64,000 nucleotides of DNA from Tubulanus polymorphus. Lineage: Eukaryota > Nemertea > Palaeonemertea > Tubulaniformes > Tubulanidae. Below, one piece after another: positions 24,185-46,000 of this stretch. The notes beneath the pieces were generated by a model. That model searched no databases, had not been told where the DNA came from, and worked only from the letters and a program-made list of their open reading frames with translations. How positions within the stretch are numbered: the stretch's first letter is position 1; each line of letters opens with the position of its first letter. The stretch lies in the NCBI RefSeq assembly GCF_964204645.1, contig NC_134034.1:13273962-13337961 (forward strand). The letters run 5' to 3'. The position numbers were made by a program, and so were the translations under genes.

Positions 24185-25020
24185 GGTGTAAATATTTCAC
24201 TGAGTTTAGAATCAGGGAACTCGGTAGCGTGTTGGGACTGCTGTAAATATTTCACTGAGTTGAGAATCAGGGAACTCGGTAGCGTGTTGGGACTGCTGTA
24301 AATATTTCACCGAGTTGAGAATCAGGGAACTCGGTAGTGTGTTGAGACTGCTGTAAATATTTCACCGAGTTGAGAATCAGGGAACTCGGTAGCGTGTTGG
24401 GACTGCTGTAAATATTTCACCGAGTTGAGAATCAATGAACTCGGTAGCGTTGGGACTGCTGTAAATATTTCACTGAGTTGAGAATCAGGGAACTCGGTAG
24501 CGTGTTGAGACTGCTGTAAATATTTCACCGAGTTGAGAATCAGGGAACTCTGTAACGTGTTGGGACTGCTGTAAATATTTCACCGAGTTGAGAATCAGGG
24601 AACTCGGTAGCGTTGGGACTGCTGTAAATATTTCACCGAGTTGTGAATCAGGGAACTCGGTAGCGTTGGGACTGCTGTAAATATTTCACCGAGTTGAGAA
24701 TCAGGGAACTCGGTAGCGTTGAGACTGCTGTAAATATTTCACCGAGTTGTGAATCAGGGAACTCGGTAGCGTGTTGGGACTGCTGTTAATATTTCACCGA
24801 GTTGAGAATCAGGGAACTCGGTAGCGTTGAGACTGCTGTAAATATTTCACCGAGTTGTGAATCAGGGAACTCGGTAGCGTGTTGGGACTGCTGTTAATAT
24901 TTCACCGAGTTGAGAATCAATGAACTCGGTAGCGTTGGGACTGGTGTAAATATTTCACCGAGTTGTGAATCAGGGAACTCGGTAGCGTTGGGACTGGTAG
25001 GCTGAATATATTTCACCGAC
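24185..25020. repeat. 55-bp hairpin satellite, reverse array
   Basis: About 15 copies of the reverse complement of the unit at 13870-14650, just upstream of the FAM221A start exon. Unit length varies by 2-bp loss (gcgtgttggg against gcgttggg). Confidence 0.95.
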
Positions 25021-26559
25021 TGGATTGAGAATATGGACTAGACTTTAATGGAATTTTTTGTTGTCAGTTTTTTTTTGAGTTCACTGGTACAGAATGAAGG
25101 CATCTTTAAACCGATAAGGCTCAACCAAAATAATTTCTCCCAGCAGGGAGATTAAACGTAGTTCTTCTTCTTGAGTCGCTTGTGTATTTTTTTACAGAAA
25201 TGAGCCTTTTTGGTAAAAGAATTTTCCACCTACCGTTTTTCAAAGCTGTACGGCAGTCTACAGTGTAATGTGTCAGTTTGTTCGTTCTCTGTCACGACTG
25301 GTTTGTTGTTGCTTGGCTTCTCTTGTTCCTGGAAGGCGATACTTTCGACAATAGCCGTGACTGTCGTCAACACCTGAAGGTTCCGAGCTATTACAGTCCA
25401 CAAATCAGTACCTGTCGATCAATTCAATTGTCATTCACAAAAAGTCGCTTAAATTCCTTTCCTTGTTGTTTACATGTTGTCAATGACGCCTGACTAAGCC
25501 GTCCCATTACGCGAAACGTCCCTGTTGGTGAATTAACTAAAACACGTACTCCGGACTCACTGCTGGCAACGCGTACACTGGCATCGGGTCCGACGAATTG
25601 CCTTTAAATTCAGCTTTGTTGACGCCGGGTCAGAAAACCATTCAGAAGAATTCAAATGAATCAAAGTATTCTATACATTTCAGCCAACTTAACTGGTCAA
25701 TGAGATCCGTTAGATTCATTTTATATCCCGATTTTATTCAAATGTTTAAATTAGTGCGGTCACGTGCCACACCACACACAGACTCGGCGTTTGGTGACCG
25801 GTCCGGCACTGGATGTCGACTTGTATTTTGTTAAGGGGCCTTTAATAAAGGCATTGTTATTAATTTAGGGATATTTATAAAGCCGCCCTGGTTTATGGCA
25901 TTACAGTGAGTGTTGAATTCAGTAAATACGAGAATATTTTCTAAAATCGAAAATCTATTTACGTTAGACATCTGTTTAAAATCTAAATTCGCACGGAGGA
26001 TCATTATGGTAAGTACTAGCTATATTTTACATACTCCATATTGTGCCTATTGTTTTAGATGTGCTGGTATACTTTTGGCCTAGCGCGCGGTGATTATTGA
26101 TCGCATCTAAAACTGCTGATTTCTGCGCTATCGGATGGGCACCGTGCGTGATGTATTATAATGGTAAAGTTTAAATTGTTTAGAATTGGCCTATGGACGA
26201 ACATCAGGCGATTTATCGGCTGCTGTTTGTGGAGGTCTAATTAGTCCCATGTGAAAAAAGTGAATCGAATTCCAGTTCAAACTTTGTCGTCCAAAAAGTA
26301 ACCCATGCGTTTGAGGTTTATTCGTAGTTCAAGATACCACCTAGTTTCAAGATGGTGGAATGATTATTGCCGTAGCTAAATTCAGTTTTCTGAAATCTTT
26401 TCAAATTGAAATGTGTAATGCCAAAGACGCCTTGGTTCTCATCGCAGCAACATGAAGAAATCACCAGACGAGGGGGACAGTTTTTTTCACAATAAAACTT
26501 TGCCGAATTCGATGCTGAATATGACCACTGAGCAATTTCCGTTCATATAACGAAGTTAA
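25021..26559. other. no gene supported; possible promoter/first exon at about 25869-26008
   Basis: A TATA-like atatttataaag at about 25866 is followed some 135 bases later by an ATG at 26006 directly abutting a perfect donor (ATG|GTAAGT). That would suit a first exon coding for Met alone, but I found no partner exon. Confidence 0.25.
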
Positions 26560-27090
26560 CTCAGCTCCACAGTTGTGTGTTTATTTTGACTCTGAACCCA
26601 GTTTCACAGTTGTGTGGGTTTAATCTGACTCTGAATCCAGTTCCACAGTTGTGTGCGTTTAATTTGACTTTGAATCCAGATCCACAGTTGTGTGGGTTTA
26701 ATCTGACTCTGAATCCAGTTCCACAGTTGTGCACCAATTTGACTCTGAATCCAGTTCCACAGTTGTGCGGGTTTAATCTGACTCTGAATCCAGTTCCACA
26801 GTTGTGTGGGTTTAATTTGACTCTGAACCCAGTTCCACAGTTGTGTGTTTATTTTGACTCTGAATCCAGTTCCACAGTTGTGTGTTTATTTTGACTCTGA
26901 ATCCAGTTCCACAGTTGTGTGTTTATTTTGACTCTGAATCCAGCGCCACAGTTGTGTGGGTTCAACTTGACTCTGGATGCAGTTCCACAGTTTTATGGCT
27001 TCAATTTGACTTTTGATCCAGTTCCATAGTTATGTGGGTTTAGTTTGAGTCCAGGTCCAAATCCGCATTTGTGTGGGTCCAATTCTACTT
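26560..27090. repeat. 39-bp minisatellite (same as 11575-12030)
   Basis: About 13 copies of the ccagttccacagttgtgtgg unit upstream of the Cys-module gene copy 1. Confidence 0.95.
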
Positions 27091-27336
27091 CAGATATAGG
27101 CTAGGAATTGTATTTCGAATTCACACTCCGGTCTATATTGATTTCAGCTACAATTGTTCTTGAAATATTTATACAAATGTTTGTTCTATGAAAATGATCT
27201 AGCTGACAGGATTCTAACACTCCAAAAACACTCCAAACACTCAAACACTCAAACACTCCAAAAACCTGAATACGATATAAACAGCCAGTTTTCACATGTT
27301 TTTCATCAGTCGACTCAAAGTAGACAAAATTCCATC

Positions 27337-29031
27337 ATGAATTCCGCTGTAATGGTTTGTGTGGTATTGGCCGTTGCCGCTCCAGGTAAGACTATTACTG
27401 AATTTATACTCACGCGCCATCCTCAACTGTAGGGCCTACGTCATTGCACAGAATTGTCTACACGGTGTCGAAATATCAGATTCTGTAGGTAGAAAATACG
27501 TATTTTTTGGGAAGTGTCAGTATAGCGCTTTATAAACTATAATCATTATTATCATGTACCTTTTTTTACTTTTTCTTCAATAGATGAAGAAAATGTTCGC
27601 ATGATAAATAGATTTGTTCATATTCAAACAGTGATTCAAGCATGAGATGACGCATTTCTCTTCAATTCTCCCGCGCGCGTTAGCGTTCAGAGTCGAACCT
27701 GATGGCATCGCTACACTCAGCCACGGCACGAACCCCTGCCACACTAGACCGGGTGCGCAGATACGTGCGTAACTTTGCCGCACGAAGACTTGCGGCACCA
27801 ATCAGATTGCTTGTTGTATAATCGCTGAGGTAATTTCACGGAAGAACTATAAATGTAAAACCCGGACTAAAATAAAACGGGATATCTGATTGGCTGATAA
27901 TGACATCATCTAAGCTGCGCACTCGGTCTAGTGTGACAGGGTTTCGTACATCTTCACCCGTCAAGGGATGCGAACCCACTACGCTAAAGCTGTTCCCCGA
28001 ACCCCTTGACCTCACGAGTCGTTGGAGTCGTTTATACTAGCCGACCAGAATAAGGTCGGGCCAATCACAGCGCTTGTTACAAACGACATTAGGCATGTAT
28101 GGAATTTCCCGGTAAATGGACCAATCAGCGAACACGTAGCGAACGCGGCAGTATTGTCGCACGTTGATATATGACGTCATGCGCAAAAGCGCCGGTAATG
28201 AAATCGCGCGTCGTGAGGCCAGGGGGCTGGTGGGAAGCGAGTTCGGGAGCGATACCGGACTCCTGGCAAGCGAGGATGGGTTTCGTACCGTGGCGATCTG
28301 GATGCCATCAGGTTCGAATCCCGGCTGGGGGAGGATGCAATTCTGGAGGCAATACACATTTTAGTTTTCTTGTCTTTAAAACGTGGCGACGTAAATTGTT
28401 TATTTATAGTTTTCGATACTTTGTCGCGGGAACCAGCGGCAACGGCGAATTTCACTTAATTTTGATATACCATCGGAAAGCCGGGTTCCACGCGTCATCA
28501 AATCCTCATCAACCCGAATCGGCATCTGGTTGTTTGGAACAGGATACTGTATCGCACTTGTTAGAAATTCGTAGCCTTGTTTGCGAACATGAAATTTGTC
28601 GTGAATTGTTTAATTTATCTTCTAAATATTCATTTTACAGTTATGGTTAGGGCTTCCAGTGACCCGTGTGCGGTAGGTTTCTCTGTGGTATTATGTCCAA
28701 AAACTTTTTTTTTTCAAGAATCGAGATGTTAAAAAGGTGGCTCCAAGCATGTGCGAAAACAATATTTTGAATATCTTTACCTTATTTGCAGGCATTGCAA
28801 GCTGCTCACCCATCAATGATCTGTACTGCAAATGGCATGAGCTGTATTTGCAAAAGTCCTCCGATCGACCCCTGCGCGGTAATTATGAAGTGCACTGCAT
28901 AAACACCTCAGTTGCAGACAGATTATACTCATAGATATTATCGTTTTCAGGCATTGCAATCTACTTACCCATCAATGATTTGTACTGCAAATGGCATGAG
29001 CTGTAGTTGCGCAAATCGCCAGTTCTGGTAG
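27337..29031 (+). CDS. modular Cys-exon secreted protein, copy 1
   Basis: Unrecognised small secreted protein, 82 aa. Exons: 27337-27385 (signal peptide MNSAVMVCVVLAVAAP), 28641-28672 (VMVRASSDPCA), 28792-28878 and 28951-29031. The first intron is phase 1 and the others phase 0; every junction is GT-AG. The two last exons are versions of one module: (A/T)LQAA.PSMICTANGMSC, then C, a Pro-rich linker and DPC, giving four Cys per full module; the last module is truncated at NRQFW-stop. The 3' untranslated region (to about 29205, with AATAAA near 29180) is nearly identical to that of copy 2 at 34.1-36.1 kb. An alternative start inside the same exon (28589, MKFVVNCLIYLL) also gives a leader peptide, but the spliced start is preferred because phases match and exon 1 is conserved in both copies. 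Function unknown. Confidence 0.7.
27578..27662 (+). pseudogene. remnant of a modular Cys-exon gene 3' UTR inside intron 1 of copy 1
   Basis: Starts tagatgaagaaaatgttcgc, as do the 3' regions of both intact copies (29119 and 36009), and keeps the tail that matches gagat.acgc.tttctct. It lies just 3' of the signal-peptide exon, upstream of all module exons, so it cannot be this gene's own 3' end. It suggests deletion or unequal exchange between tandem gene copies. Confidence 0.5.
27690..27842 (-). mobile_element. tRNA-derived SINE
   Basis: On the minus strand it shows an A-box-like gtggctgagtgtag and a B box ggttcgactc about 25 bases on. It is nearly identical to 32112-32281 on the plus strand over its whole length, including the attacctcagcgat end. 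Confidence 0.75.
27950..28277 (-). mobile_element. about 300-bp non-coding element in intron 1 of Cys-module copy 1
   Basis: Its reverse complement matches the insertion at about 34620-34920 in intron 1 of copy 2: ends catcctcgcttgcca(gg) and the cacccgtcaa(a)gg/ttcgaatcctttgacggg side. Contains a B-box-like segment. Confidence 0.65.
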
Positions 29032-30446
29032 ATATTTACATTTTACATTATTTCAAACTGAATTGTTCAATGACAGAACCTTTTTCATCAGCCAATCATC
29101 TTTATTTCTTGCAGACAAAATAGATGAAGAAAATGTTCGCATGTTGAACGGATTTGTTCAGTTATTCAAAGATCGATGTAATAAACATGAGATAACGCGT
29201 TTCTCTTGAATTCTAGCAGTTTTCATTTCTTCATTTCGTTTTTCCTTTTTTCGTATTTCGTACATTTCTGGACCTGTTTTTACAGTTAACGAATAAAACC
29301 CACAGTTACATCAGAGCAACAAAAAATACAATAATCATTATTGTATTTTCGTTCCTCTGAAGATGAGGTTTAGTTTGAACCTCAAACTGAAAGGCAATAA
29401 TCTATTTTAAAAAAATGTCGGAAATCGCGGAAAATGTAAGAACTAAATCAGGGAAAACTCGGCGAATTCGACACGTTTCGCAAAAACCTAAAAATACATG
29501 GAAATCTGATGACGTATTATTGACCAGGCGTTTCTTTACTATTACTAACTTAAGGAGGAAACATTCCGGAATCTCTTATTCGTTCGCATTGCGGGAATTT
29601 CTTATTTTTTTCGCAAATTATCCAGATGAGAGTGCGATCCTGGTATCCGAAGTGTAGTTTTACGACATCGACGGTGCAAGCTCCGATGAGGATGGGTTTC
29701 TCCGTCAAGGGGCGCAGTTGGTCCATCACATCTGATGCTGAGTTTGCCTAAAAGTAACACGGGGGCAGTTTTGTGTTTCTAATACACAGCGCATAGTTAA
29801 TTCCGTGGATGCGTCGCGGTCAAACGGTCAGTGCTATGCGCATCGATAGACTGTCAGTAAGAAAGCGGCACAGGCACGCGAGTTTGATGAATAAAATGAT
29901 AGATCTACAGTCTTGATCGATTCTATTTACAGTTATGATAAAAGCGCACACCGCTCCGATAGGTTGACCGATAGTTCGTAATGAATTATGATACTGAAAG
30001 GTCGTCAGTAAATCATCAAGGCAGCAAGCCCGGTTAATCATTAGTCACCGTTCGTTTTTTAGTATTTTTTAATGAGACCAGTGTCAACCTTCCAGATATC
30101 ACTGCGCGCTTATAAACTGAGCTTACTATCGTGGAGCCGCTTGCGTAGTCATGGCTTAAAGACCAGTCTAAGACCAACTTAGTTCTATTAGCCAATCTAA
30201 CAACTTAAGACCGGTCTTATGATCCAAGACCACTTATGGACTTAAGTCACGACGACTGTGCAACGGCTCCAGAAGCCAAAAACGGAGGCAGTTTTCCAGC
30301 TACCGAGGCAATGAGACTGAGTTGCGTTATAACGGCGGTGCACTGAATGAATAAAGTACAATAGATCGCCAGCACATGGAATGCCCATTCGAGAATTACA
30401 CTTTTCGACTTTTTGACAGTTTGCCACCACGCATTGGAGTATCAGA
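29032..30446. other. 3' region of Cys-module copy 1 and intergenic DNA
   Basis: 29290-29400 holds a foldback element (gagcaacaaaaaatacaata) also found at 36232-36315. 30128-30273 is a MITE of the family at 5345 (ends gcttgcgtagtcatggct and gactgtgcaacggctcc). Nothing else recognised. Confidence 0.55.
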
Positions 30447-30519
30447 GCCCGGTTAGCTCAGTCGGTAGAGCATCAGGCTTTTAACCTGAGGGTCGCGGGT
30501 TCGAGTCCCCCACCGGGCG
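30447..30519 (+). tRNA. tRNA-Lys-TTT: tRNA-Lys (anticodon UUU)
   Basis: A complete 73-base cloverleaf without intron: acceptor stem GCCCGGT paired with ACCGGGC, discriminator G, A box TTAGCTCAGTCGG, anticodon stem CAGGC/ACCTG around loop TTTTAA with anticodon TTT, B box GGTTCGAGTCC. TTTT follows about five bases after the end, a pol III terminator. Unlike the SINE heads in the window, all stems pair, so this looks like a working gene. Confidence 0.93.
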
Positions 30520-30784
30520 TCACATTTTGCCTCATATGATTTTGGATAAGTTCAGCTTTCTTATTTTAGTTCTGAGAAACAGACTTTTAGATACTAGTGA
30601 TGAGTTATACATGCAGTATCAATCATAATGTGATTACAAACAAGGCGAAACATCCATATTGTTACATACATGGTTGGGTGCTTGGACAGCTAATTCAGGT
30701 GTCTCATATGGATCCAAGTTATCAGAAAAAAATGATCAAATCTTAACGAAAATTAAAGCGATTAAAGTTTAAACACGAGATAAA

Positions 30785-31245
30785 AAAAACTAAGGGAGAG
30801 AGGGGAGAGAGAGGGAGAGAGGGAGAGAGGGTGAGAGGGAGAGAAAGAGATGGTGGCTTAAAGAGATGGCGATGGTGCTGATGCTTGTTCTGGGGTTGAG
30901 GATGGTGATGGTGGCTATAGAGATGGCGATGGTGCTGATGCTTGTGCTGGGGTTGAGGATGGTGATGGTGGCTATAGAGATGGCGATGGTGCTGATGCTT
31001 GTGCTGGGGTTGAGGATGGTGATGGTGGCTATAGAGATGGCGATGGTGCTGATGCTTGTGCTGGGGTTGAGGATGGTGATGGTGGCTATAGAGATGGCGA
31101 TGGTGCTGATGCTTGTTCTGGGGTTGAGGATGGTGATGGTGGCTATAGAGATGGTGATGGTGCTGATGCTTGTGCTGGGGTTGAGGATGGTGATGGTGGC
31201 TATAGAGATGGTGATGATGGTGATGGTGTTGGTGATTATTGAGGT
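30785..31245. repeat. GA-rich tract and 54-bp minisatellite
   Basis: 30785-30850 is gagaggga-type sequence. 30860-31240 has about seven copies of a 54-bp unit (gatggtggctatagagatgg, cgatggtgctgatgcttgtg, ctggggttgaggat). 54 is a multiple of three, so frames stay open by construction on both strands. Confidence 0.95.
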
Positions 31246-31334
31246 GGTTGACTATGAAGTTCCCAAGATTTTTTAGGGCTATATTCCGGACCTCGAACAC
31301 CAACCTTTCCGTCCCAGACCCATAGAGGAATCAT

Positions 31335-31440
31335 CCTCCCCGGCAGGGATTCGAACCTGATGGCATCGAGATTGCTACGGTACGAGACCCTGCCACACTA
31401 GCCCGAGTGCACAGCAGCTACACGCGCAGCTTAGATGATG
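31335..31440 (-). mobile_element. tRNA-derived SINE fragment
   Basis: Reverse-strand ggttcgaatccctgccg and ccatca core as in the SINEs at 27690 and 32112, with a different head (gtaccgtagcaatctcg). Confidence 0.6.
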
Positions 31441-32111
31441 TCATTACAAGCCTGTAGAAGCAATAGTTATAGGGTTTTATGTGTATGGAAAAGATAGTGC
31501 GTGTGCAGTGTGCACGATAGCGCACACTAGATGAGCGCTGGTGCGCACACTGAATGCAAATGGCTCGGGTTACAAGGAGGGAGTACGTTGAAAAGAAAGA
31601 ACAGCATTTAATTACTATAATTAAAATGTAAGGACTTTTAAGATATGGTAAGTGTAGCACAGGAGGGAGTAGAATGGAAGTAGCCGGGATTGATAATACC
31701 AAATAGGGTAAGGATAGAAGTGGGTGAGGTCAGGTTATAGGAATGTGAAAAATGTACAAAATCGTATATAGGTCTTAAGGTTTTTGAAGTTAAGAGACTT
31801 GGGGAGATAAAGCTGAATAGATAAGCAGTAGAGAGAAAATAAAGTAAAGCTTGATCATACCAGATAGTATAGTAGTTAATATCTGCATAAGGAAGAGGCA
31901 GGTCAGCAAAAGGAACCAGTTACATATAAGATGATCCAGCGGCACAGCATCAGTGAGAAGAACGAGGTGACACAACAAGTGGTACAGAGATTGTTAAGTC
32001 CCTTTACAAGTGGTGAAGATCGTTGTACCATTACAATGGTGGAGATTGTCGTACCATAACAAGCCAATCAGGTATCCCGTTATATTTTAGCCCTTGTTTT
32101 CCCATTTATAG

Positions 32112-32281
32112 TTCTTCCGTGAAATTACCTCAGCGATTGTACAACGAGCAATCTGATTGGTGCCGCAAGTTTTCGTGCGGCAAAGCTGCGCATGTACCTG
32201 CGCATCCGGTCTAGTGTGGCAGGGGTTCGTGCCGTGGCTGAGTGTAGCGATGCCATCAGGTTCGAATCCCTGCCGTGGGAT
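32112..32281 (+). mobile_element. tRNA-derived SINE
   Basis: A-box-like gtggctgagtgtagcgatg and B box ggttcgaatccctgcc, about 170 bp with upstream ctgattggtgccgcaag shared with the reverse copy at 27690-27842. Confidence 0.75.
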
Positions 32282-32869
32282 GATGTAGAGGAATAGGAGG
32301 TTTAGGGCTTAGGATGACTCCGTTCGAGTGGCCTGTCGATCAGCCGCAGGCAGACTGGTTTTCGTAACGGTACATAAACATGTACATATACATATATTGC
32401 ATATGTGTACACGTATATACTAAATACCATTTTCATTCACGCAGTTACTGTTATTCATATGAAATTGCTTCCCAGATCGAAATTCCAGCAGAAAGGCATC
32501 TGCTTAAAATCAACAATTGCCAAGCATCAATATATATATATTTGAAAAATATACCGGCTACGTACCATTTCATATATATTCATATTTGATAATGCGCCTT
32601 TATTGTTTTAGCTGAATATACTTAGTTTTAGTATATGGGCTCGCCGTGAATTGATTATTGATTGAATCGTTGCTCGCACCAGAACTGCGTAGCCTTTGAT
32701 GAAAATTCTCAACTTTTTCAATAGTTGCTTGTGAGGGAACTTCGCTTTATCGGCTATTCGTGGATAAGTAGGCCAAGGTGGAAACCGGGTGGATATATCG
32801 GTAAATTATAATCATTCTAATGAAAAGACAGAAAGATATCAGAACGACTTTGAAAACTGTTGAAATCTA

Positions 32870-33045
32870 GTTCCATATTTGTGTTGTTTAAATTTGTACT
32901 CAGGACACAGTTCCACAGTTGTATGGGTTCAATTTGACTCCGTACCCGGTTCCACAGTTGTATGGGTTCAATTTGACTCCGTACCCAGTTCCACAGTTGT
33001 GTGGATTTAATTTGACTCCGTACCCAGTTCCACAGTTGCATGGCT
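32870..33045. repeat. 39-bp minisatellite, four to five copies
   Basis: Units with ccagttccacagttgt as at 11575 and 26560, immediately before the eroded third Cys-module gene. Confidence 0.9.
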
Positions 33046-33149
33046 ACGATCTGATGATTTTCCATATGGGATGATTTTTTAAAAATTTTCGCTGCACTTC
33101 TTTTTAACCATGTATCGATTCATCCGCAGTTTGTGCAGGAAATATTTCA

Positions 33150-33310
33150 TTAATGTTTACCCGGTGAAACTCTCGGACAGAATTTTATTCAAACACTTCG
33201 AAAACCACTGCATACGATATTGAGCTACCAGTTTAGTCACGTTTATGATCAAACGACTATAAAATTAGACAGAATTTAATCACGAATTTACCTGTATTGC
33301 CAAGTGAAAC
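33150..33310 (+). pseudogene. eroded 5' part of a third modular Cys-exon gene
   Basis: The stretch is a diverged copy of the 5' region of the gene at 34138 (compare 33160-33300 with about 34020-34155): it shares the actctcg.acagaatt and ttcaaacact motifs, then the pre-start block. At the position of the start codon (about 33282-33287) the ATG GAATTC context reads ACGAATTT, so the start is lost. No module exons follow before 33.9 kb. I read it as a remnant of a tandem array of these genes. Confidence 0.5.
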
Positions 33311-33464
33311 GGAAGAGAATGACATTTCATCAAACACTTCCTTAAGGGCGAAATATAGGAGGCATAAAGAAAATCTGATGCCCTTGATCTTAAAAGAAGG
33401 TAGAAAAAGATTTTAACGACTTTTAGAATCCAGGAGTAAATAACAAACAAGTAGTGCTATATAG

Positions 33465-33785
33465 GTTAACTATTTATTTGACGCACGAGCTTTCGCTTAC
33501 TAATGAATAGAAGCTTCATCAGCTGAACGATGACTCATTCACCTCATCAAGGGCGTACTCTTTTATGACCTCCGAAGTCTCCGTTCGAAATCACCGGTTG
33601 GCTCCACACAAAATCCGAATCACACCACCTCGACAGAAAGGAGGTTTCGGAGACTCCAAAAAGTCACGTGACCAATAAAAGAGTACGATTGGAGGCAAAC
33701 GGATTCTCCGATCTGATAAAAGAGTTCGCCCCAAGCGTCTATACATTAGTAGCGAAAGCTTGTACGTCGAATAGAGATAGTTAAT
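33465..33785. mobile_element. foldback element, about 310 bp
   Basis: Left end aactatttatttgacgcacg-agctttcgct and right end agcgaaagcttgtacgtcga-atagagatagtt are inverted repeats; same termini as the small hairpin at 9838-9905. Confidence 0.7.
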
Positions 33786-34137
33786 CTATTATAGTACTAC
33801 TCGTCTCGTTTATCTATTCTAAACCCGGTTAACACGGCTACTCTACGAATCTGCTCGTAGTTGTGTTGGTGCAAGTTGTCTCTGAATTCAATCTCCTGCA
33901 GTGTTACGAGTTTTTGGTTCCATATAGACCGAATTGTTTTTCGAATGTTCACTGCGCAATAGCTTTCCGCCCGACTGTATTGATTTCATCATTGTTCTGG
34001 AAAATGTTCAAATGTTGATTCTATGAAACTCTCGAACAGAATTCTAATTCAAACACTCCATAAACAACTGTATACGATATAAGCTACCTGTTTTACATGT
34101 TTTTCCTCAGTCGACTCAAAGTAGACAAAATTCCATC

Positions 34138-35907
34138 ATGAATTCCGCTGTAATGGTTTGTGTGGTATTGGCCGTTGCCGCTCCAGGTAAGACTATTACT
34201 GAATTTATACTCACACACGCCATCCTCAACTGTTGCCTACGTCATTGCACAGAATTGTCTACACGGTGTCGAAATATCAGATTCTGTAGGTAGAAAATAC
34301 GTATTTTTTGGGAAGTGTCAGTATAGCGCTATATAAACTATAATCATTATTATCATGTACTTTTTCCAGGCGTGCTTTCAGGTTCGAATCCCTGCTGGGG
34401 GAGGATGCAATTCTGGAGGCAATACACATTTTAGTTTTCTTGTTTTTAAAACGTGGCGACGTAAATTGTTTATTGATAGTTTTCGATAATTTGTCGCGGG
34501 AACCAGCGGCAACGGCGAATTTCACTTAATTTTGATATACCATCGGAAACCCGGGTTCCACGCGTCATCAAATCCTCATCAACTCGAATCGGCATCTGGT
34601 TGTTTGGAACAGGATACTGGACATCCTCGCTTGCCAGGGGTCCGGTATCACTCCCAAACTCGCTTCCACCAGCCTGGCCTCACGAAGCGCGATTTCATTA
34701 CTGGCGCTGTTGCGCATGACATATCGATTTGCGAAATACTTCCTTGTTCGGTAAAACGTTCGCTGATTGGTCCATTTAACGGGAAAACCAACAGAAGTCT
34801 ACTGTGATTGGTACGACTGGATTTCGGTCGGCTAGTAACGACTCCAACGATTCGTGAGGTCAAAGGGTTCGGGGAACAGCTTTAGCGCAGTGAGTTCGAA
34901 TCCTTTGACGGGTGAAGATGGATGCTGTATCGCACTTGTTAGAAATTCGTAGCCTTGTTTGCGAACATGAAATTTGTCGTGAATTGTTTAATTTATCTTC
35001 TAAATATTCATTTTACAGTTATGGTTAGGGCTTCCAGTGACCCGTGTGCGGTAGGTTTCTCTGTGGTATTATGTCAGAAAACGTTTTTTTTTTCAAGAAT
35101 CGAGATGTTAAAAAGGTGGCTCCAAGCATGTGCGAAAACAATATTTTGAATATCTATACCTTATTTGCAGACATTGCAAGCTGCTAACCCATCTATGATT
35201 TGTACTGCAAATGGCATGAACTGTAGTTGCGCAAGTCCTCCCGCCCCTCCGGTCGACCCTTGCGAGGTAATTATGAAATGGACTGCATAAGCACTTTGTT
35301 TGACGAAAGATTGTGCTCATAGATATTATCTTTTTCAGACATTGCAAGCTGCTAACCCATCAATGATTTGTACTGCAAATGGCATGAACTGTAGTTGCGC
35401 AAGTCCTCCGGTCGACCCTTGCGAGGTAATTATGAAGTGGGCTATACATAAACACTTTGTTTGACGAAAGATTGTGCTCATAGATATTATCTTTTTCAGA
35501 CATTGCGAGCTGCTAACCCATCTATGATCTGTACTGCAAATGGCATGAACTGCAGTTGCGTAAGTCCTCCATCTCCTCCGGTCGACCCTTGCGAGGTAAT
35601 TATGAAATGGACTGCATAAACACTTTGTTTGACGAAAGATTGTGCTCATAGATATTATCTTTTTCAGACATCGCGAGCTGCTAACCCATCAATGATTTGT
35701 ACTGCAAACGGCATGGACTGTAGTTGCGCAAGTCGTCCCGCTCCCACGGTCGACCCTTGCGCGGTAATTATGAAGTGGACTGCATAAACACCTCAGTTGA
35801 AGACAGATTATACTCATAGATATTATCGTTTTCAGGCATTGCGAGCTGCTAACCCATTAATGATTTGTACTGCAAATGGCATGAGCTGTAGTTGCGCAGG
35901 TCGCTAA
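34138..35907 (+). CDS. modular Cys-exon secreted protein, copy 2 (five modules)
   Basis: Paralogue of the gene at 27.3 kb, 175 aa. Exons: 34138-34186 (signal peptide, identical to copy 1), 35019-35050, 35171-35266, 35339-35425, 35500-35595, 35668-35763, 35836-35907. All module exons are phase 0 to 0, 96 or 87 bases long, and encode (T/A)(L/S)(Q/R)AANP(S/L)MICTANGM(N/D/S)CSC followed by a Pro-rich linker (SPPAPP, SPP, SPPSPP, SRPAPT) and VDPC(E/A). The last module stops after CAGR. Introns between modules are about 72-74 bases and almost identical, so exon plus intron is the unit of duplication (starts 168, 161, 168, 168 bases apart). Module number differs between paralogues (2 against 5), so exon gain and loss is recent. 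Secretion is predicted from the leader; no known family is recognised. AATAAA follows near 36067. Confidence 0.75.
34618..34921 (+). mobile_element. about 300-bp insertion in intron 1 of Cys-module copy 2
   Basis: Copy 1 reads ggatactgtatcgcac at 28539; in copy 2 the same site is split by about 300 bases flanked by ggatactg and ggatgctg, a possible 8-bp target duplication with one mismatch. Ends with a B-box-like gttcgaatcc. Confidence 0.7.
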
Positions 35908-36106
35908 GTTCTGGTAGATATTTACATTTTACAAATTATTTCAAACTGAATTGTTCAATGACAGAACCTTTTTCATCAGCCAATCATCTTTATTTCTTGC
36001 AGACAAAATAGATGAAGAAAATGTTCGCATGTTGAACGGATTTGTTCAGTTATTCAAAGATCGATGTAATAAACATGAGATAACGCGTTTCTCTTGAATT
36101 CTAGCA

Positions 36107-36514
36107 GTTTTCATTTCTTCGTTTCTTTTCCCTTTTTATGGAAAATCCGGACCAGTTTTAATTTTCAAACACGGTAGGCCTGCGAGCGAATTCATATATC
36201 CAACAAAGATGAAACTTAAAACCCACAGTTACATCAGAGCAACAAAAAATACAATAATCATTATTGTATTTTCGTTCCTCTGAAGATGAGGTTTAGTTTG
36301 AACCTCAAACTGAAGGACTGAATAAACTGTTTTTACAGAAGTAACCGTGGGTTTCATTCGTTAACTCTACGTTGAGATTTACATCAGTTCACTGCAGTCA
36401 GTTTTCATTTCTTCGTTTCTTTTCCCTTTTTATGGAAAATCCGGACCAGTTTTAATTTTCAAACACGGTAGGCCTGCGAGCGAATTCATATATCCAACAA
36501 ATATGAAACTTTAA
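36107..36514. repeat. duplication of about 106 bp, copies 294 bp apart
   Basis: 36107-36212 and 36401-36514 are nearly identical (start cagttttcatttcttcgttt); between them lies the foldback element also found at 29290-29400. Confidence 0.8.
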
Positions 36515-36547
36515 ACGACGGCTATAGTTTATATAATGAGTTCCTCA

Positions 36548-37567
36548 TTACTTTGATTTTCGAGAGCACGAGAGCAATTTTATCTGTTCTCTGAAATGCA
36601 CGCTGTAAACGTAGTAGAATATACCGTTCACGGATGAATTCAGCGTTTGGAAAACCTCGTTGGTGAGTAATATCTGCCAGGTCACCGACCCGGGGAGATA
36701 CAGGTTTAGAGCATTGTATAACATATCAGGGGTGACTGACACCATGAATAAACTGGACGCGACGAACACCATTCTGTGCGCGGTACCGTCTTGTTTGTTG
36801 CGCTTTGAGTCAGCAACGGTCATTCGTCGCCTGTTCCTAGCGTGAATGCCTAGTTTAATTACCATGATCGTATTCAGTATTGGAATTAGAGCGAATGGCA
36901 AATACGTCGCGAAAATACTTGCTAGTAAAAACGCAAATCTTGGCGCGGTTTGAACTGTTTTTGTACCGAGTACAGTGAGGCCGTACGAACATAATACATT
37001 CACGTACACTATAATTCGGTCTTGCGATCGAAGTACGGAAAACGTGCTCCACGCCAGAATCCAAAAGCCTGCGAATACATAACAATGTTTCAAACTCCAA
37101 TATCTCTTCGCTTTGAGCGGGAAGCAAATGTGAAGCGCTCGATCGAACGTTACCAATAACGTCAAACTGTTGCGAATATCGGAGGCCCATTTTGAAATGA
37201 GGTTGCCGGCTAGATAAAACACGGGAGCTCCCAAACCGCGATTGAAATACAACGCGATCGGTCCGTGGCGAATGAGTCTCGCAACCCACTTTAAATGATT
37301 ATACATGACGATCCCGATACAACTGAACACATCAAAAATAGCAAGCAACAATAAGGTAAAATTGGAAGTAGCAGAACCGTTCATTTTATGGAGGCGATAT
37401 AGCACCGTTATCGTAACCGCGTTGGACAAAAGACCGAACCACGCGATCGGTCCTACCAGCGTTGTCACGACGAAACTCCAGACGATGTGTTTGTAAGGCA
37501 GGCATTTTTGCGCAACACTGTCGTTAAACATGTGAAATATCGCTTTCCTGAATGTCTCTCTATTCAC
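36548..37567 (-). CDS. intronless class A (rhodopsin-like) G protein-coupled receptor
   Basis: 339 aa, seven hydrophobic segments. Landmarks: TM1 with N1.50 in GLLSNAVTI; TM2 with the conserved Asp (LLLLAIFDVF); TM3 ends TFDRALHICFPL, so the DRY motif reads DRA; TM4 with Trp (FWILAWSTF); basic third loop (HARNRRRM); TM6 with SVTPDML; TM7 NSSVNGIFYYVYSVHF in place of NPxxY. Divergent DRY and NPxxY are common in lineage-expanded orphan receptors of lophotrochozoans, many of them peptide-receptor-like; the ligand cannot be told from sequence. The initiator is the first ATG; the frame is closed upstream. It lies just 3' of the Cys-module gene copy 2, on the other strand. Confidence 0.85.
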   Translation of the reverse strand: MNRETFRKAIFHMFNDSVAQKCLPYKHIVWSFVVTTLVGPIAWFGLLSNAVTITVLYRLHKMNGSATSNFTLLLLAIFDVFSCIGIVMYNHLKWVARLIRHGPIALYFNRGLGAPVFYLAGNLISKWASDIRNSLTLLVTFDRALHICFPLKAKRYWSLKHCYVFAGFWILAWSTFSVLRSQDRIIVYVNVLCSYGLTVLGTKTVQTAPRFAFLLASIFATYLPFALIPILNTIMVIKLGIHARNRRRMTVADSKRNKQDGTAHRMVFVASSLFMVSVTPDMLYNALNLYLPGSVTWQILLTNEVFQTLNSSVNGIFYYVYSVHFREQIKLLSCSRKSK

Positions 37568-40074
37568 GTGAGGATGTGACGCGAATAGACGCGGTAACCG
37601 TGTGCCGGGCGTTCGTCACAAATCACGCCTTGTGTGAAATATTCTACGTTCGGCGAAAATTATACAGAACGTTTTTTGCTTCATGCAAAACCAACCGTTA
37701 CATAATCATTTCCGTTTTTTGATGACGAGGCGTTTTGACGATATATTTCCACGTATTCACACCCGGTGTAAGCTGCGCAGATTCAGAGTTCACATTATTT
37801 CAGATAATTTTAGTGAAATTCTCTTGAAAAATACACGAATATTCTTCGATATTTCATTAGGGAAATCTGCGGTTTCACAGAAAACCCTTTTTTCTTCCTC
37901 CAGATCGTTTGCCAATAATTATTGTAGTAAATTAGCATATGTATTTTTCATAATCTCTGCATACAATGTGATATTTGGACAGATTTTAAGTGCGCTATAT
38001 GGTTATGAAGGATCCAGTGCTTGGGATAATTGAATTCGAATTCCATCGAAACAGAACTTGATTTTCACTGCAACAAATTCGAAAATGTCGTTTAGAGTGT
38101 TAATATAGACGCTCGCAAGGTATCCCATCTTTCGTGCATAAGGGGTTAAACTGAGAGGTCGTGGGTTCGAATCCTAGTGGAATCGTGTTGTTATTATTCA
38201 GGCAGGGCGTCCATCCCGACCCGATGAACGTTGCATTGAGTTGTGATACGGGAAATGAAGGTGTGAAATCTTTGCCACTTACGGTCAAAAATAATCTTCG
38301 AATTTCACAGGTCGTTTTCGGGAATCATTAAGTTGACGACAACGCGGACTTAAATTCCATTTAACAAAATCTATCAGTGTTTGGTTATTATAAATTTATT
38401 CAAATTCTCGTTATACAAATGTACACGTATTACAGCATCTGCCATTCTTCTCGACTTCAACGAATCAACCCCGACATTTTGGTGCCTTAAGGAGCAAACT
38501 GATACGATTTACTGCACCGTCTGAACCGGGTTTATTCACAAGTTAGGTTTACTGTAGCCAGACGTTACTTTTATACACACAATTTATCTTTACAATACAA
38601 CAGTTATGTAATAAATTGTACAAAATGCTATCTACAATATTCACAAAAAAACCAATCCTATGAAATCCCGCGCTGAGGAGAATAACAAATGTTCACTTGA
38701 GCCAATAATAAAATCAGTCACAATTTCGACTATATCCCACTAAAATTCAGATAAGCGTGAATTTGTTCTGTCAGCTCAAGTTGAATCTATCACACCGATG
38801 TGTTCATTCAGAGATTCGTTAATAAACTTTCAGAACTGAGTTATATCAAGTGATCTTTTGAAGATGATTTTAAGGATATAGTCTCGAGTATAAGCTCATA
38901 AAGATACATTTCGGATTGTGTATTCTCAGCGTGGGATTTTATATTCTGTTCACAACCCGGACAGCGCGTGTTCCACCGATGTTTATATACATGTACAACC
39001 CTTTTTCAATAACTGCAAAATCCCCAAGCAATACGAAAAACGATAAGCACGTTCAAAACGTGAACTAGGAAATTGGTCTTTACTCTGGTGTCTAGAATTC
39101 AATGCTGACAAAAGCGGTGAGATTATTATCTTAACTTAAACAGGGTCCCTGCACATCAGTCATCCCTGGATGTAAGGAGTTTTTAAGGAGGAAGCGTCTG
39201 CATCTCTAAAATCAGAACGGTTTATCTCGGAAAAACCGAATTTCACCAATTTCACCAATTTAGGCATTTTGCTGTACTACAACAAACTAGACAAAAATTT
39301 CTATTAGCCTTTTCTCAAACTTGAAGGTAGTTTTAAGAAGTTTTGTGCATTTTTAGCTCAAATCAAAAGGAATCTCAAGCACCTTTAAAAGCATTTTCCC
39401 TTAAGGTGTTTTTACAGGAATCAAGGAGTAGTAGGGACCCTGTAAAAGAAATAACTGATCACGATTAGGCGTGATGGTCTACAGGACCCACTTCCGCAGT
39501 TCTGAGTTTAACATTCAACTCATCGAAAAAGAACCAATTTCAACTCTAACTTACACCTGCAGAACTGGTCATCAACTGCCGACCAGTCGGGCGGAAAATT
39601 ACGACACGCTCACTATTTACAACAATAATATAAATTCCTTCTCTCGAACAACGCGAAAATAAAATATATGCAAAAAATACAAACACAATCTCTGTACAAA
39701 TTACGGTCATATTGCATGTGGCAGAAAACGTATAGATATCTGAATATCATTCGTAGCCGAACTACGAAATCTCACGGCAAAAACAGACCGAAAGAGGCAT
39801 ACTGCTAAAGCACAGCTACACTGGGCTGCGATGTATCGTTAGTTACTAATATTTCCACGTGTACAATAGGTGCCGCCATCTTTCAATGTTATTTAATTAC
39901 TGACTACCACACATCGCGATGCGGTGTACAAGCAGTCTAATATCGATTTATAGGCACTGAAACTAGGATTGTTATAGGTACTGGTAATTACTAATTACAT
40001 CGATATACAAGTTTCACCAGCGATTAATACACCGCACTGCGGTGCAGACGTACTGAGACAATTAACGCGACGAA
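37568..40074. other. intergenic DNA and probable DBF4 3' untranslated region
   Basis: 38130-38275 holds a tRNA-like SINE (B box gggttcgaatcctag, followed by ggcagggcgtccatcccgac). 39478-39570 is a copy of the foldback element of 12246-12357. AATAAA signals for the minus strand are at about 38395 and 38526. No other gene seen. Confidence 0.5.
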
Positions 40075-43000
40075 CTAATCGTCGAATTCAAAAATCGAAT
40101 TTTTCTGCGACGAAAGTCTTCGCGATTTCGGCTTGTTTTTACCGCTACTCGCACAGTTCGCCGTCGCGGCGCTATCGGGACTGCGACCCGGTGAACCGCT
40201 AACGATTTTAATCGCGCGCGAAATTCTCTGTTTTTTCGTCCGTCGCGAACGCGACTGATTTTCAGCGCCGTCGCTGTCGACCTCGTCCGCGTCATCGGCG
40301 GCGGCCGCGAGAATTTCCGATAGTTTGCGTTTTCGACGAGCGCCGCCGCCGATGGAACCGACATCGCATGAACGAACGACCGACGACGCCTTGGTTTCAA
40401 CTACGTCGTCGATATTTCCGTCGCCGAATTCTCCCGACGCCGGGCAACGTTTTCGAGGTGAGCACCGACGAACGATCGCGGGCGCAACCGGTGACCGAGA
40501 CTTCCGCTTGTTCGTCGTAACGGGCCGCGACGACGCCGTGGAATCCGGAGATTTCTGACTGAGTATCTCCGCGCGCACGCTAGCCGGCGTAACGGACGCC
40601 ATACGATCATAATCGGGCCAGACTTCACTACCGGTGGCGCCACCCGTGATCCTCTTTTTACTCGTATCGACGTTCGAACGTTTAGCAGACGATTTCCTCT
40701 CGTGAAAACTGCCGCCGATCATCCGCGACACGTAATACGTTTTTCCGCGACTGGCTAATTTCGAATCGGCCGACGGACTACCGATCACTGTCTGTTTACC
40801 CGACTGGTCGACACCAGTCGGCGATAAAAGCGCCCCCTGTCGCTTGTGTCCGTGCGGCGTATCGTCGCAACTTTTCGATTCTTTTTTATCGAGCGACACG
40901 AACACGCCGCCGATATTGACGAGTGAATTTTGACTGACAGGAGATTCCCGCGGCAGTAACGTCGATCCTTCCGACGACGACGAAGTCGCCGTCGCTTTGC
41001 CGTCTACGAAATCGCGGCCCGTATCGACGAACGGTTCGAGGGTGACTCCGGACGAGAGAATCGGTGATTCAGGCGGCAGACGACCGGCGAAATGCGATAA
41101 TTTTAACGAAGACTGATGACCACTATTCGGGCTCTGATCGACGTCCGCCCGATTCCGGTTCATGTCCGCTTGTCCGCTCGAATCGTGCGCCGATTTGAAA
41201 CTACTGTCGATGAACATGTCGCAGACGGTATCCCATTCCGAGTCGGAGCCGCCCGACTGGCGCCCGGTGGCGTCGGTGGAAATCTGACCCAATATTTCAT
41301 TCAAAGCGTGGTCGGCGTCCTCCGGGTCTTCGTCGAGACTTTCGCGCGACGCGTCGTCGTTACGCCGTCGTTTCGACATTACCCGCTGCCGGGTCGCCGC
41401 CGCGCGTTTAACTTTCTTCGTCGGTTTGAACGGCGACAATAAGCGGACCGTCTGAAATCCGCCGGACAGCGAACAGACGGAGAATTTCGCCGGCGACTTC
41501 ACCTCGGCGATCGGTGTCGGCGTGACGAGTCTCGCTCGACCGGTTTTAATCGGCGACAGCGGGAATCCGGTGAAATCCCGAGACGACGGGTAATGCCGCC
41601 TCGTCGGTGACATCATCATCGTTGAGTTACTCGTCGTCGGTTCCTCCGCCGAAGCGACCGAAGATCCTTTTGCGATGGTATCGCGCTTTCGTTTCCCCGA
41701 TCGACCGACCCGATCTGCGCCGCCGGCCTCGCACTCTACGACGCCGACATTTTCATTCCGACCCTCGTCCATCGATTGCGATCGTTTCTTTCCGCGCCTC
41801 GCGTCACCCTTCTCGCGATCCTTCTTTCGCTTCTTGCGCAGTTTTCGCTCCACCCGCGCTTCCGAATTCAACAAAGCTATAATCGATTTCTGCGCCTCCT
41901 CGTCCAAAGATTCGTCGTCGACCAGTCGGCCTCGTCTTGCCGCGTCGTCCCAGTCGAGAGGCGCGATACCCTCGACGTCGCTCTCCTCGTTAACGACCGT
42001 CAGCTCCGATCGACTAGTCTCTAGAACCGCGTCGCCGACCGGGCTACCGTCGCTCGTCTGAGAAGGCGTGGTCGCCGCTGAAACCGCTGTCCGTTTACTC
42101 GGCGTTCGCGCTGTTTTTTCGTCGTCGACAGGTGGCGACACCGGCGGCAGCATCCGCGATACGAATTCGCCACTCGGTAGACGCACCAACTTGACGCGCG
42201 GCGACTTGCCGATCTTCATCGACCGTTTCAACAACTCGTACGATTTCTGTCGACTCGGCGACAACTTCTTCAAGAAACTTCGAGCGTCTTTCGTCGTCGA
42301 CGCCATGCGCGGCGCTTGACGTCGGCGCTGCTTCGACCCCGGGTCGTAGTAGTAATAATCGACGGCTTCGAAGTCGCTGTTCTTCTCGGCGGCCTTCGTG
42401 TCGACCGGTATGCGACCGTCGGCGACGAGACGCCCGTGCAAACGTTCCAACTCGTCGCAGCAGAACTCGCGCAGCGTTTCGGCGAAATCGCGCGCCTCTA
42501 TCATCTGATCGGCGACCTCCGTTTCGAAGTTCAATCCCAAAACTAGTCGTTTCGTCCATCCGATTCTACGAAGGCTGCAACGCCCGACCGGTTTAACGAT
42601 CGTTTCATTTTCGTCCCTTCTCGTCCCACTCTTAACGGCAACATCGTTCTCGTTATCCGCAAACTTTTCCTCATCTCTCCAAATATCTTTACCTTCGCTT
42701 TTCTTCTTGTTACGTGTTTTATTGTCACTCCCCTTCCCATCCGCGCTCTTCCCATCCTTAACATCTTCGCCAGCAACAATGGCGGCATTGTTCGTCTCGT
42801 CGCCAATCGAATCATCATCGATGAAATCGGCGATATTTTCTTGCTCTTCTCTCCCTGCGCTTTTACCTTCGCGTTTCTTTGCCGCCGGACTCAACATGTA
42901 ATCAACGGTCGCGTCCGAGCTGCAGTTCTCATCATCATCCTTATCGCAATCATCATCATCATCATCCTTATCGTCATCGGCAACGTGGGAATCTTCAGTT

Positions 43001-46000
43001 CTTGCATCATCGGCGTCCGTCGCCTTCATCGTCACAAGACGATCGTTTTTCTCACTTTCTTCGCTCGTATTTTCGTCGGATGTTAATTCGTCGATCGATT
43101 GCTTCGATGGCGATTTCTCCGACTTCGTTAAACGCGTTAATCTGGTCATCGCTCGGCCTCGGACCGAAACGTCGTCGTCGCCGGGCTTCTCCGTCGATTC
43201 GGCTGCATCTACTTTCGTAATTTTAGACGCTTCGTTGCCATTACGCGGCGACCGTCTCAACACTTCCGTCTGCTCACCGCGTTCCTTCGTCCCATGACAT
43301 TTCCGTTTTTGTTTCCTTTCTACGGAGTCGCTATTCTCCGGCGTTCCCGACATTTTCGACGAGAATTTCCGACCATCTCGAGTATCGTCATCGGCCGCGA
43401 CCGACTGACTGGACCTAGTTTCACGAGGAGGCGGCGACGAAGCAAAAGTCGAAGCGATCGATTTTCTCGTCGTTTTTCGCGGCGGTGACAATAAAACTCG
43501 CGTCGGTTCGTCGATTCCAGATTCCGAATTCTGCAAAGCGTGGCGCCCTCTAGTAACGCGCAACGGAGAAACGACAGCCGAAAAAAGTTCGGCATCGTCA
43601 GGCGATTCAAAGTCCGCGACGTCATCCATTTTTTGATGCAATCGCGTACGCCTCGCCGGAGACACAAATCTCTCCGGAGTTCTGCCGATTGCCCCTCCAA
43701 CAATCTGCGATTTAATCGGGCTATGAAACGACGCCGACGCATCGATGGTCTTCGTCGCCGCCGCCGCTCGTCTGCGCCGTGTCGGCGACAACAGATCGTC
43801 GAGCGAGCCAACAAACGACAGATCGGCTCCGTGCGAACGCGTGCACCGCGGCGGGGAAACAACAGCGGCGCCACCTATCAGCGACGAATCAGACTTCTCT
43901 GTCGACTTCCGAGAATTAGCCTTATTTCCAACATTTTCCAAATCTTTCCGCTCATTTTTGTCATTCGCAACAACATTTTCGACCGGGTTTTCCCCAGGCA
44001 GCGTCAGTGGCGTCTGCGACAATTCAGTTCGTGTCGTATTCACGTGCAATTTTTTACCGCGTCGAGCCCGCGGAGATTTCAATACCGTATCCGGGGGCAA
44101 CTCGGGTAACGTTTTTAATTTGATCGGTAAACTTCGTCCGATTTCTAGAAAGTCCAACTTGTTCTCGGCTTGCCTGTCGTCGACGACCGCGGTCGTCGAA
44201 TTCGAATCGTCGTCCGCAGATTTTCGCTTTTCGATTCCGCAAAGTTTTCCCATCGAACGCGTCAGCGGAGAAATCAACTCTCCGACTTCATCATCGTCTT
44301 CATCATTCTCACCGACTTCATCATCATCTTCATCATTCTCACCCACATTCTGGCCGACGGAATTCTTTACATCTTTCTCACGATCACAATTACGGACCGG
44401 AGGATTCATCACTTGCTCGGTACTCTCCTCGCGGACATCAGTGCGGCGTATCTTCCTTGTCGACTCGGAACGTAAATACGGAGTCGATCGTTGACCAGTC
44501 GGCGACTCATCAACCGTTTCGCCATCTTTGACATTGTTAATGCCTTTGATCTCGACCGTCCGAACCGGCGATTCTTCAACCGGTGATTCATCAACTAGTG
44601 ATTCATCAACTGGTGATTCTTCATCTGGTGATTGCTTGACAATTTCGTTGGTTTCCATCGAGACTTTTTCTAGGACATCAACTTCAATTTCTTTCCTCGC
44701 TTCAACAGTTTTCGGACTGCGGTTACTTTCCCCGATATTGTCCACGTAACTATCGACAATTCCTGTCGCGTCTTGCCGACTTTTTATCGACCTTCCTTTA
44801 GTCTCATCCGTCTCAATTGTCGTCGCCGCATCCTGTGGACTTTTTAACGACCTTCTTTTAGCATCGTCCATCTCATCCGTCATCGCCACAATTTGAGGAC
44901 TTTTTAACGACCGTCGTTTAGCGCCGGCGGTCTCGATCACCATCGCGGCATCGGCGTTTAATCGTGGACTACGCCTGGAATCACGGCGAACAGAACGGGC
45001 GTCGAATTGTTTCTCGGATTCAACTCCGGACCGCGGCCGATCAGGCTCGACTGCGGTGGGGGGTATCTTGGTCGACAAACGCGGACTGGATCGCGGCGGC
45101 GAAAACAACAACGCTTTCGACGCCCGTCGTTTTTTGTGAACGTCTTGCGAACGTCTGCCATCTTTCGCGACGATGTTCACGTCTTTTGCCGCCAAAACGT
45201 TCGCGACCGAATTGTCATCGTTCTCGGGCGAAAATATCAAATTCTCGAACAGCGAACGAGTCATCTTCTTCGGCGTACAAACCTTCGCGTGGCAGACATT
45301 AGTTTCTACCGTAACGTCGGCGGTGGCGCCATCGCCGATCGGCTTTTTCTCATTTTCGGCTGCCGCGGCGACGGCGGTTTTCGACGATAGTTTTCGCGGA
45401 CTCGATCTCGTCGGTAAATTCGCGCCGAGCAGCTTCGAGTTTTTCAACAACACGTCTCGATTCGTCGACGTCGTTTCGCCAGGTGGCGCTCGAACTTGCG
45501 ACAATCTCAGCGGCGAAAGCGCGTTGTTCTGGTTGTGGTTGTTGGTTTTCACATTTTTTCGCGGTGAAGATCGGACTCCGATTCGACCGACGTTGGCGCT
45601 CACCGGCGCTGACTGAGACCTACAACAAATGAAAAATGTTAGGCCCTATTTGAAGAATCATCGCAAAATTTCCCGCTCATTTCTCACATTTGAGGATAAC
45701 TCGTGATGGAATGGTTCCAAATGCAGTGATTTGGATATTCTTGGAGCCACCCGTCAGAGAATGGAATGACTAAGAAAGCTGTGATTTGGATATTCTTGGA
45801 GCCACCCATTAGAGAATGGAATGGCTAAGAAAGCTGTGATTTGGATATTCTTGGAGCAACCAATTCATGAAACCGAGAAAACCATACTTCGGGAGATATT
45901 GTTTTGTTGCCTATTTCATCATGAATTTAAGATTCCAAAGTTTTTCCCAAGTATTTCATGGGTGATTTTTCAATTTTCCCAAATGGAAATGAACAGATAT

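Follow-up and report, generated by a model that had tools for sequence, protein, structure and literature searches.

How a gene for a new secreted protein acquires its promoter, its signal peptide and a body able to fold, all of which it needs together, is the question raised by two neighbouring genes of the nemertean Tubulanus polymorphus. These genes, designated G1 (27337-29222) and G2 (34138-36110), lie in a stretch of 64,000 nucleotides (nt) on contig C10 (C10:13273962-13337961; henceforth the window, whose numbering is used for all positions given without a contig or locus name). Their promoter-signal part and their body appear to have their nearest relatives on two chromosomes, and the body appears to grow by copying of exon-intron units, so that steps in the birth of a secreted gene can be tested directly, through expression and through the genomes of sister species. 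We modestly favour the account in which G1 and G2 are real duplicated genes that combine a promoter-leader cassette of a type found on contig C3 with a body of a type found on contig C1, and that encode a secreted array of repeated units. The unit itself, with four cysteines, is without recognition in the profile libraries searched.

Gene models were built on positions 26500-36600. Both genes show a leader exon of 49 nt ending in phase 1, a second exon of 32 nt, a series of module exons that are all entered in phase 0, and a 3' untranslated region (3'UTR) exon; G1 has two module exons and G2 five. Every modelled intron is of the GT...AG type, and the last one lies at or just past the stop, ahead of the 3'UTR exon; in G1 the stop would be a TGA built across the last junction, or a TAG directly beyond it if this intron is unspliced. 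Exons 1 and 2 are 100% identical in the two genes, and the models bear out the proposal of an earlier sequence-only reading that these are paralogous genes with a common leader exon and two against five modules. The predicted proteins have 81 (G1) and 175 (G2) residues, or 59 and 153 in the mature form if cleavage is assumed just before the residue preceding the first DPC motif (see below). A hydrophobic leader, judged by eye, agrees with the suggestion that they are secreted. The components of the two genes are as follows:

27249-27385, forward strand: G1 promoter (TATA, initiator TCAGTC) and leader exon 1 (27337-27385), together the cassette; 74-81% identical to C3 loci, TATA-initiator spacing 32
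28641-28672, forward strand: G1 exon 2 (gene model), end of the signal region and first DPC; identical to G2 exon 2
28792-28878, forward strand: G1 module exon 1 (gene model), 87 nt, phase 0
28951-29027, forward strand: G1 last module exon (gene model), 77 nt, stop at its end; 7 replacement and 0 silent changes relative to the G2 last module
29115-29222, forward strand: G1 3'UTR exon with AATAAA; 99-100% identical to the G2 copy (108 nt)
34037-34186, forward strand: G2 promoter and leader exon 1 (34138-34186), together the cassette; 34037-34181 is 79% identical to C3 locus L051 (E 9e-30)
35019-35050, forward strand: G2 exon 2 (gene model)
35171-35266, forward strand: G2 module exon 1 (gene model), 96 nt
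35339-35425, forward strand: G2 module exon 2 (gene model), 87 nt
35500-35595, forward strand: G2 module exon 3 (gene model), 96 nt
35668-35763, forward strand: G2 module exon 4 (gene model), 96 nt
35836-35913, forward strand: G2 last module exon (gene model), 78 nt, with TAA
36003-36110, forward strand: G2 3'UTR exon with AATAAA; 99-100% identical to the G1 copy and homologous to the 3'UTR exon of the C1 gene

The internal module exons are all symmetric and are separated by introns of 72-74 nt, giving a unit spacing of 168, 161, 168 and 168 nt in G2 and 159 nt in G1; Tandem Repeats Finder reports the G2 array at 35164-35902 with a period of 168 and a score of 1145. This spacing, along with the 94-98% likeness of G2 introns 3-5, upholds the view that an exon-intron unit of about 160-168 nt is what duplicates. 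The proposed changes in 9-nt steps are likewise seen, the difference between exons of 87 and 96 nt being one such step in the proline-rich linker. These sizes hold for the internal modules, but the last modules are 77-78 nt long, without linker and DPC.

At the protein level the repeat is DPC-x11-C-x6-C-x-C, and an intron splits each unit directly after its first cysteine. Since the first DPC comes from exon 2 and the last module has none of its own, n module exons yield n complete units, with short, often proline-rich linkers between them. In the models of both genes exon and domain are therefore out of register: the earlier equation of one module with one phase-0 exon was right as to phase, but the protein repeat begins at the DPC on the preceding exon. 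Because the repeat gains and loses whole symmetric exon-intron units, the reading frame is kept.

A third module gene was recovered when the genome (267.8 Mb, 77 contigs) was searched. It lies on C1 (locus L009, 6474 to about 7680) and comprises a leader, exon 2 and three modules (87, 87 and 77 nt), with a 3'UTR intron as in G1 and G2 and without the 9-nt linker insert; a lone decayed last module with one cysteine changed is found 1.7 kb downstream. Genome searches to E 10, with the best candidates scored, gave no further module except for a weak match to a stretch on C9 (E 2.4) that contains a stop. In an alignment from DPC across the three genes, the residues D, P, C, P, C, T, G, C and C are invariant in 10 of 10 units. 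Four comparisons of first or last modules between C1 and C10 give a synonymous divergence (dS) of 0.7-1.7 and a nonsynonymous divergence (dN) of 0.18-0.40, with dN/dS at about 0.2-0.3, and a fifth (G2 module 4 against C1 module 2) is saturated. When the first and last modules of G2 and C1 are pooled, silent changes affect 19 of 35 sites and replacement changes 27 of 121 (Fisher p = 0.0006). This excess of silent changes, together with the low dN/dS, indicates real coding exons under long-term constraint. We accordingly regard chance reading frames or decayed repeats as a most improbable explanation: gene remnants do occur in the same stretch, as does the lone C1 module that has lost a cysteine, but frames, splice sites and the four cysteines are kept in all 10 units despite a dS of about 0.7-1.7 between the loci. 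Judging from sequence, then, G1 and G2 are real genes that arose by recent duplication and are predicted to encode secreted proteins of two and five four-cysteine units. The last intron and 3'UTR exon (35914-36110; L009 7472-7680) are conserved between C1 and C10 to about the same degree as the modules (z about 10), a hint that the 3' end carries a functional element.

In the C10 genes, front and body differ as to their nearest relatives. The G2 segment 34037-34181 is 74-79% identical to eight copies on C3; the match to locus L051 reaches 79% over 150 nt (E 9e-30, z 56), and the L051 leader is the closest to that of G2 among those compared (80%; for the leader exon alone, z 9, with 0 of 500 shuffles reaching the score). 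The body, in contrast, is related to the C1 gene, which is matched by pieces of G2 34964-36116 and G1 28586-29228. C1 and C10 resemble each other in intron 2, in the last intron and in the 3'UTR exon at z 8 to 10.5 against shuffles, and weakly in the inter-module introns (z 2.8 and 3.9), but not in the 200 nt that precede the ATG (z -0.8). Similarly, the C1 promoter and leader compare with those of L051 or G2 at shuffle level (z -0.8; 285 and 279 of 300 shuffles reach the score). With the front nearest to C3 and the body nearest to C1, G1 and G2 look like chimeras, most likely of a C3-type front and a C1-type body joined within intron 1.

The common leader exon additionally belongs to a wider promoter-leader cassette that, in copies examined on C3, also stands before a different secreted family. 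When used as query in a DNA search, the G2 promoter and leader (34040-34190) recovered G1, G2 and at least 13 other places (12 on C3, one on C9), and a C3 copy used as query gave at least 23 matches, 18 of them on C3 in two clusters, one on C4, two on C9 and two on C10; both counts are lower bounds. Seventeen of the 23 matches were examined, the remaining six all being on C3. Thirteen of these 17, at 12 loci in the two C3 clusters and on C4, precede an exon of the other family; two are G1 and G2, and the two on C9 precede neither type. The exon at the 12 loci is cysteine-rich with the pattern GCTV.RFP.SS...Y......C..C.C......C, and for five of them the exon scan lists a second exon with a CC pattern. 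We take the C..C.C and CC spacing of this family to resemble that of VWC domains; as a profile-based assignment this was rejected, with no Pfam match for four C3 peptides. Spacing between the TATA-like element and the initiator, scored with loose patterns, is 29-32 in 15 of 16 cassettes. The leaders measure 49 nt on C10 and 67-73 nt on C3 and C4, all ending in phase 1, and 48 nt on C9, ending in phase 0. The two C9 loci showed no C3-type exon and no module over about 3.4 kb; these loci (L060 and L061; C9:529400-532900 and 773500-777000) carry the cassette promoter and a leader of about 48 nt, and a third kind of body is expected further on. At another locus (L064; C3:24025800-24029200, minus strand) two cassette matches stand before one C3-type exon, and the ATG of the first has become ACG.

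As to how the parts came together, the C10 lineage may have gained the cassette, perhaps through recombination between dispersed repeats in intron 1. The module protein would then be produced by the secretory cells that also produce the C3 family, the two being predicted to be expressed together because they have a promoter in common. More tentatively, the cassette might be a reusable launcher, joined through the first intron to at least three unrelated bodies (VWC-like, module repeat and C9 body), such that each new secreted gene is born expressed in the same gland or cell type, with the module gene caught while both of its parents are recognisable.

Several points weigh against a chimeric origin. 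The gene models are predictions from genomic sequence. The C1 leader exon, taken by itself, is weakly like those of G2, L051 and L060 (5, 10 and 6 of 500 shuffles, respectively, reach the score), possibly as a result of an old common leader or of plain signal-peptide composition. The C1 promoter and leader region has no other match in the genome, and in a FastTree phylogeny C1 groups next to the C9 cassettes, with a support of 0.67 and a branch of great length. G1 intron 1 does have in common with intron 1 of the C3 locus L057 a 334-nt repeat (86% identity), but pieces of this stretch occur elsewhere, so that repeat-mediated joining is plausible at best. The direction of transfer could also be turned around, loss of the cassette by C1 being conceivable. 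An explanation along these lines would have the cassette ancestral to all module genes, with C1 having lost or replaced its promoter, its leader having diverged or been replaced, and nothing having been captured on C10. It would accommodate the weak resemblance of the C1 leader exon to cassette leaders, the old relationship of the C1 and C10 bodies (dS about 0.7-1.7) and the uniqueness of the C1 leader region within the genome, which a later replacement would also show. However, 19 of the 23 cassette matches listed are on C3 or C4, the home of the other family, the cassette is present on only two module genes, and the C1 leader is no nearer to C10 than to C3; we hold this history to be possible rather than probable.

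An improbable alternative dispenses with shuffling altogether, by making the module a shortened derivative of the cysteine-rich C3 domain (VWC-like by spacing), so that cassette and body would have descended together. What speaks for it is L051, which, among the copies compared, has the leader closest to that of G2 (80%), and in which C.C is followed by ANR and the end can be taken as DPCAK. Comparison of the module with the C3 exon by hhalign nevertheless gave a probability of 0.2%, on which assignment of the modules to VWC through homology to that exon was also rejected, and G2 has no DNA match to eight C3 loci beyond the cassette and repeat pieces within intron 1. Of the repeats in this region, a single one has parts in the first introns of both G1 and G2, oppositely oriented (27949-28279 and 34622-34920). 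A 39-bp minisatellite is present at 11560-12020, 26562-27048 and 32869-33043, two of these sites being just upstream of the G1 leader and of a remnant leader (see below), and by eye a similar stretch occurs in intron 1 of the C3 locus L063.

The two genes show turnover of their units. The module exons of G2 are 83-98% identical to one another. Its introns 3-5 are of one type, while intron 6 and the G1 inter-module intron form a second type (97% alike, and 81-86% alike to the first, the figure for G2 intron 6 being 84-86%). By comparison, intron 2 of G1 and G2 is 97.5% identical and the last intron 100%, apart from a 2-nt indel. The intron types differ more than these flanks and hence seem older than the split of the two genes; most likely G1 lost modules and G2 multiplied one intron type. 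Two remnants of the same family are found nearby:

27579-27669, forward strand: remnant of a 3'UTR exon inside G1 intron 1; 81% identical to the 3'UTR exon, E 1e-17
33152-33299, forward strand: decayed promoter and leader of a further copy, ATG lost; 75% identical to the G2 promoter-leader, E 1e-21

The last modules of G1 and G2 are the one pair of modules whose flanks on either side are orthologous; they differ by 7 replacement changes in 53 sites and no silent change in 16, against 2 changes in 159 positions of the flanking introns (p = 0.001). Between the first G1 module, whose orthology is unclear, and those of G2 there are 8-11 replacement and 2-4 silent changes. The earlier description of the family as fast-evolving thus fits its recent divergence, but between C1 and C10 selection has been purifying (dN/dS about 0.2-0.3). 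Selection for change is itself called into question in that the test concerns one pair of 69 nt, in which replacement over silent changes alone is not significant. Gene conversion or array shuffling that imported a diverged module is a considerable, though minority, possibility as the source of the replacement excess: units do turn over, G2 holding two intron types and G1 joining flanks of both, and just one pair can be tested. Such a tract would have to end near the exon edges, as both flanking introns are 97-100% identical, and should have brought silent changes, of which there are none.

The claim that the module belongs to no recognised family was sustained by all database searches. The G1, G2 and C1 proteins in Pfam, the G2 and C1 proteins in NCBIfam, and sequence searches of the PDB (best E 0.098) gave only chance-level or artefactual matches; viral and prokaryotic contigs had 15 and 51 stretches with the pattern, respectively, and 0 confirmed relatives; and a literature text search with the motif gave unrelated papers, while among the papers listed in searches on related topics none reports this module family. 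Searches for the marker families COX1, molluscan haemocyanin and annelid erythrocruorin linker were likewise empty, which says little about the animal; for the last two, control genomes also gave no match. Membership of the EGF/hEGF families was rejected at 9.1 bits against a cut-off of 29.3 (C1 protein only). The Saposin family SapB_2 reached 22.1 bits with the whole G2 protein (cut-off 21, E 0.00017), but none of the stretches passes alone, the best covering 14 residues, and in Pfam the match is absent from the G1 and C1 proteins. The mature proteins have isoelectric points of 6.4 (G1), 4.3 (G2) and 4.8 (C1) for the assumed cleavage site, unlike cationic antimicrobial peptides with their net positive charge, and none of the three has dibasic sites between repeats, as neuropeptide precursors would.

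By analogy, the products are most likely gland- or surface-secreted disulfide repeat proteins. Each unit might fold as a small beta-hairpin knot with two disulfides, and the array, in a gland or outside the body, could have a structural or multivalent binding role, in which changes at exposed positions and in copy number might be selected. Structure prediction for an exon peptide gave a hairpin with a mean predicted local distance difference test score (pLDDT) of only 64. Two considerations detract from this functional picture: the peptide folded was one exon rather than the true DPC unit, making for a weak model, and the call of function rests on composition and analogy.

Among known systems, the nearest precedent for the cassette is a family of Schistosoma japonicum in which similar signal sequences and core promoters are dispersed before different short secreted products (PMC3434034). 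Repetitive elements were proposed as mediators there, one locus has tandemly repeated exons, and the authors report no homologue in other organisms (PMC3434034). The likeness, one of kind, is that of one promoter-signal part at many loci; here too one promoter and signal exon stands before unrelated mature parts, the 17 examined among at least 23 matches including module bodies, VWC-like bodies and two C9 loci with neither. For G1 and G2, unlike that family, nearest relatives can be named both for the front (on C3) and for the body (on C1), and their mature part consists of cysteine modules in a regular array. The schistosome micro-exon genes are also secreted, with symmetric exons and tandem clusters, and have a higher dN/dS in the mature part than in the signal part; most of their coding sequence is in very small symmetric exons, and they are apparently restricted to flatworms (PMC4350168), whereas the internal exons of G1 and G2 are of 87-96 nt and are near-identical copies of one cysteine module. 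The aphid bicycle genes, secreted and fast evolving, combine many short exons of one phase with a cysteine motif present one to four times per protein (PMC9168663). By description they parallel G1 and G2 in their short one-phase exons and multimerised motif, but their exons are in phase 2 with CYC motifs, against phase 0 and 2 to 5 units of DPC...C...C.C. Secreted tandem arrays of cysteine-bearing domains, again compared by description, also characterize the TGM family of Heligmosomoides, with 3-7 domains and exon modularity (PMC10516467); these are CCP-type domains of about 80 residues encoded by two exons each, unlike the present modules. Finally, exon 6 of JAG1 has boundaries out of phase with those of its cysteine domains (PMC2725086), an offset comparable to that in G1 and G2, although there it concerns EGF repeats in a Notch ligand.

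Downstream of G2 lies a G protein-coupled receptor (GPCR) gene (36548-37615), and five copies related to it (44-47% identity, dS 1.8-1.9) adjoin the C1 module gene. The latter are five tandem genes upstream of it (C1:9762100-9772400; L036 and L009), four of which are 90-99% identical in protein. That a member of the same subfamily stands near a module gene at both loci might suggest the module proteins to be ligands of the adjoining receptor. This is very unlikely, as the subfamily is dispersed, with at least 30 near-full-length members on eight contigs (of 122 listed matches, those with at least 44% identity over at least 288 residues, the window copy included), the module was present in 0 of 4 other GPCR neighbourhoods examined, and the mature proteins lack dibasic processing sites. 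The pairing looks like an old linkage rather than a ligand and its receptor.

Elsewhere in the window, a tandem repeat with the common core ACCGAGTTCCCTGATTC occurs in both orientations at 13880-14647, 24187-24996 and 47342-47624. The minus strand has at 40075-45645 an open frame of 1856 residues in which, by eye, Ser, Lys and Arg are abundant, and a tRNA-Lys (TTT) gene is located at 30447-30519, between G1 and G2.

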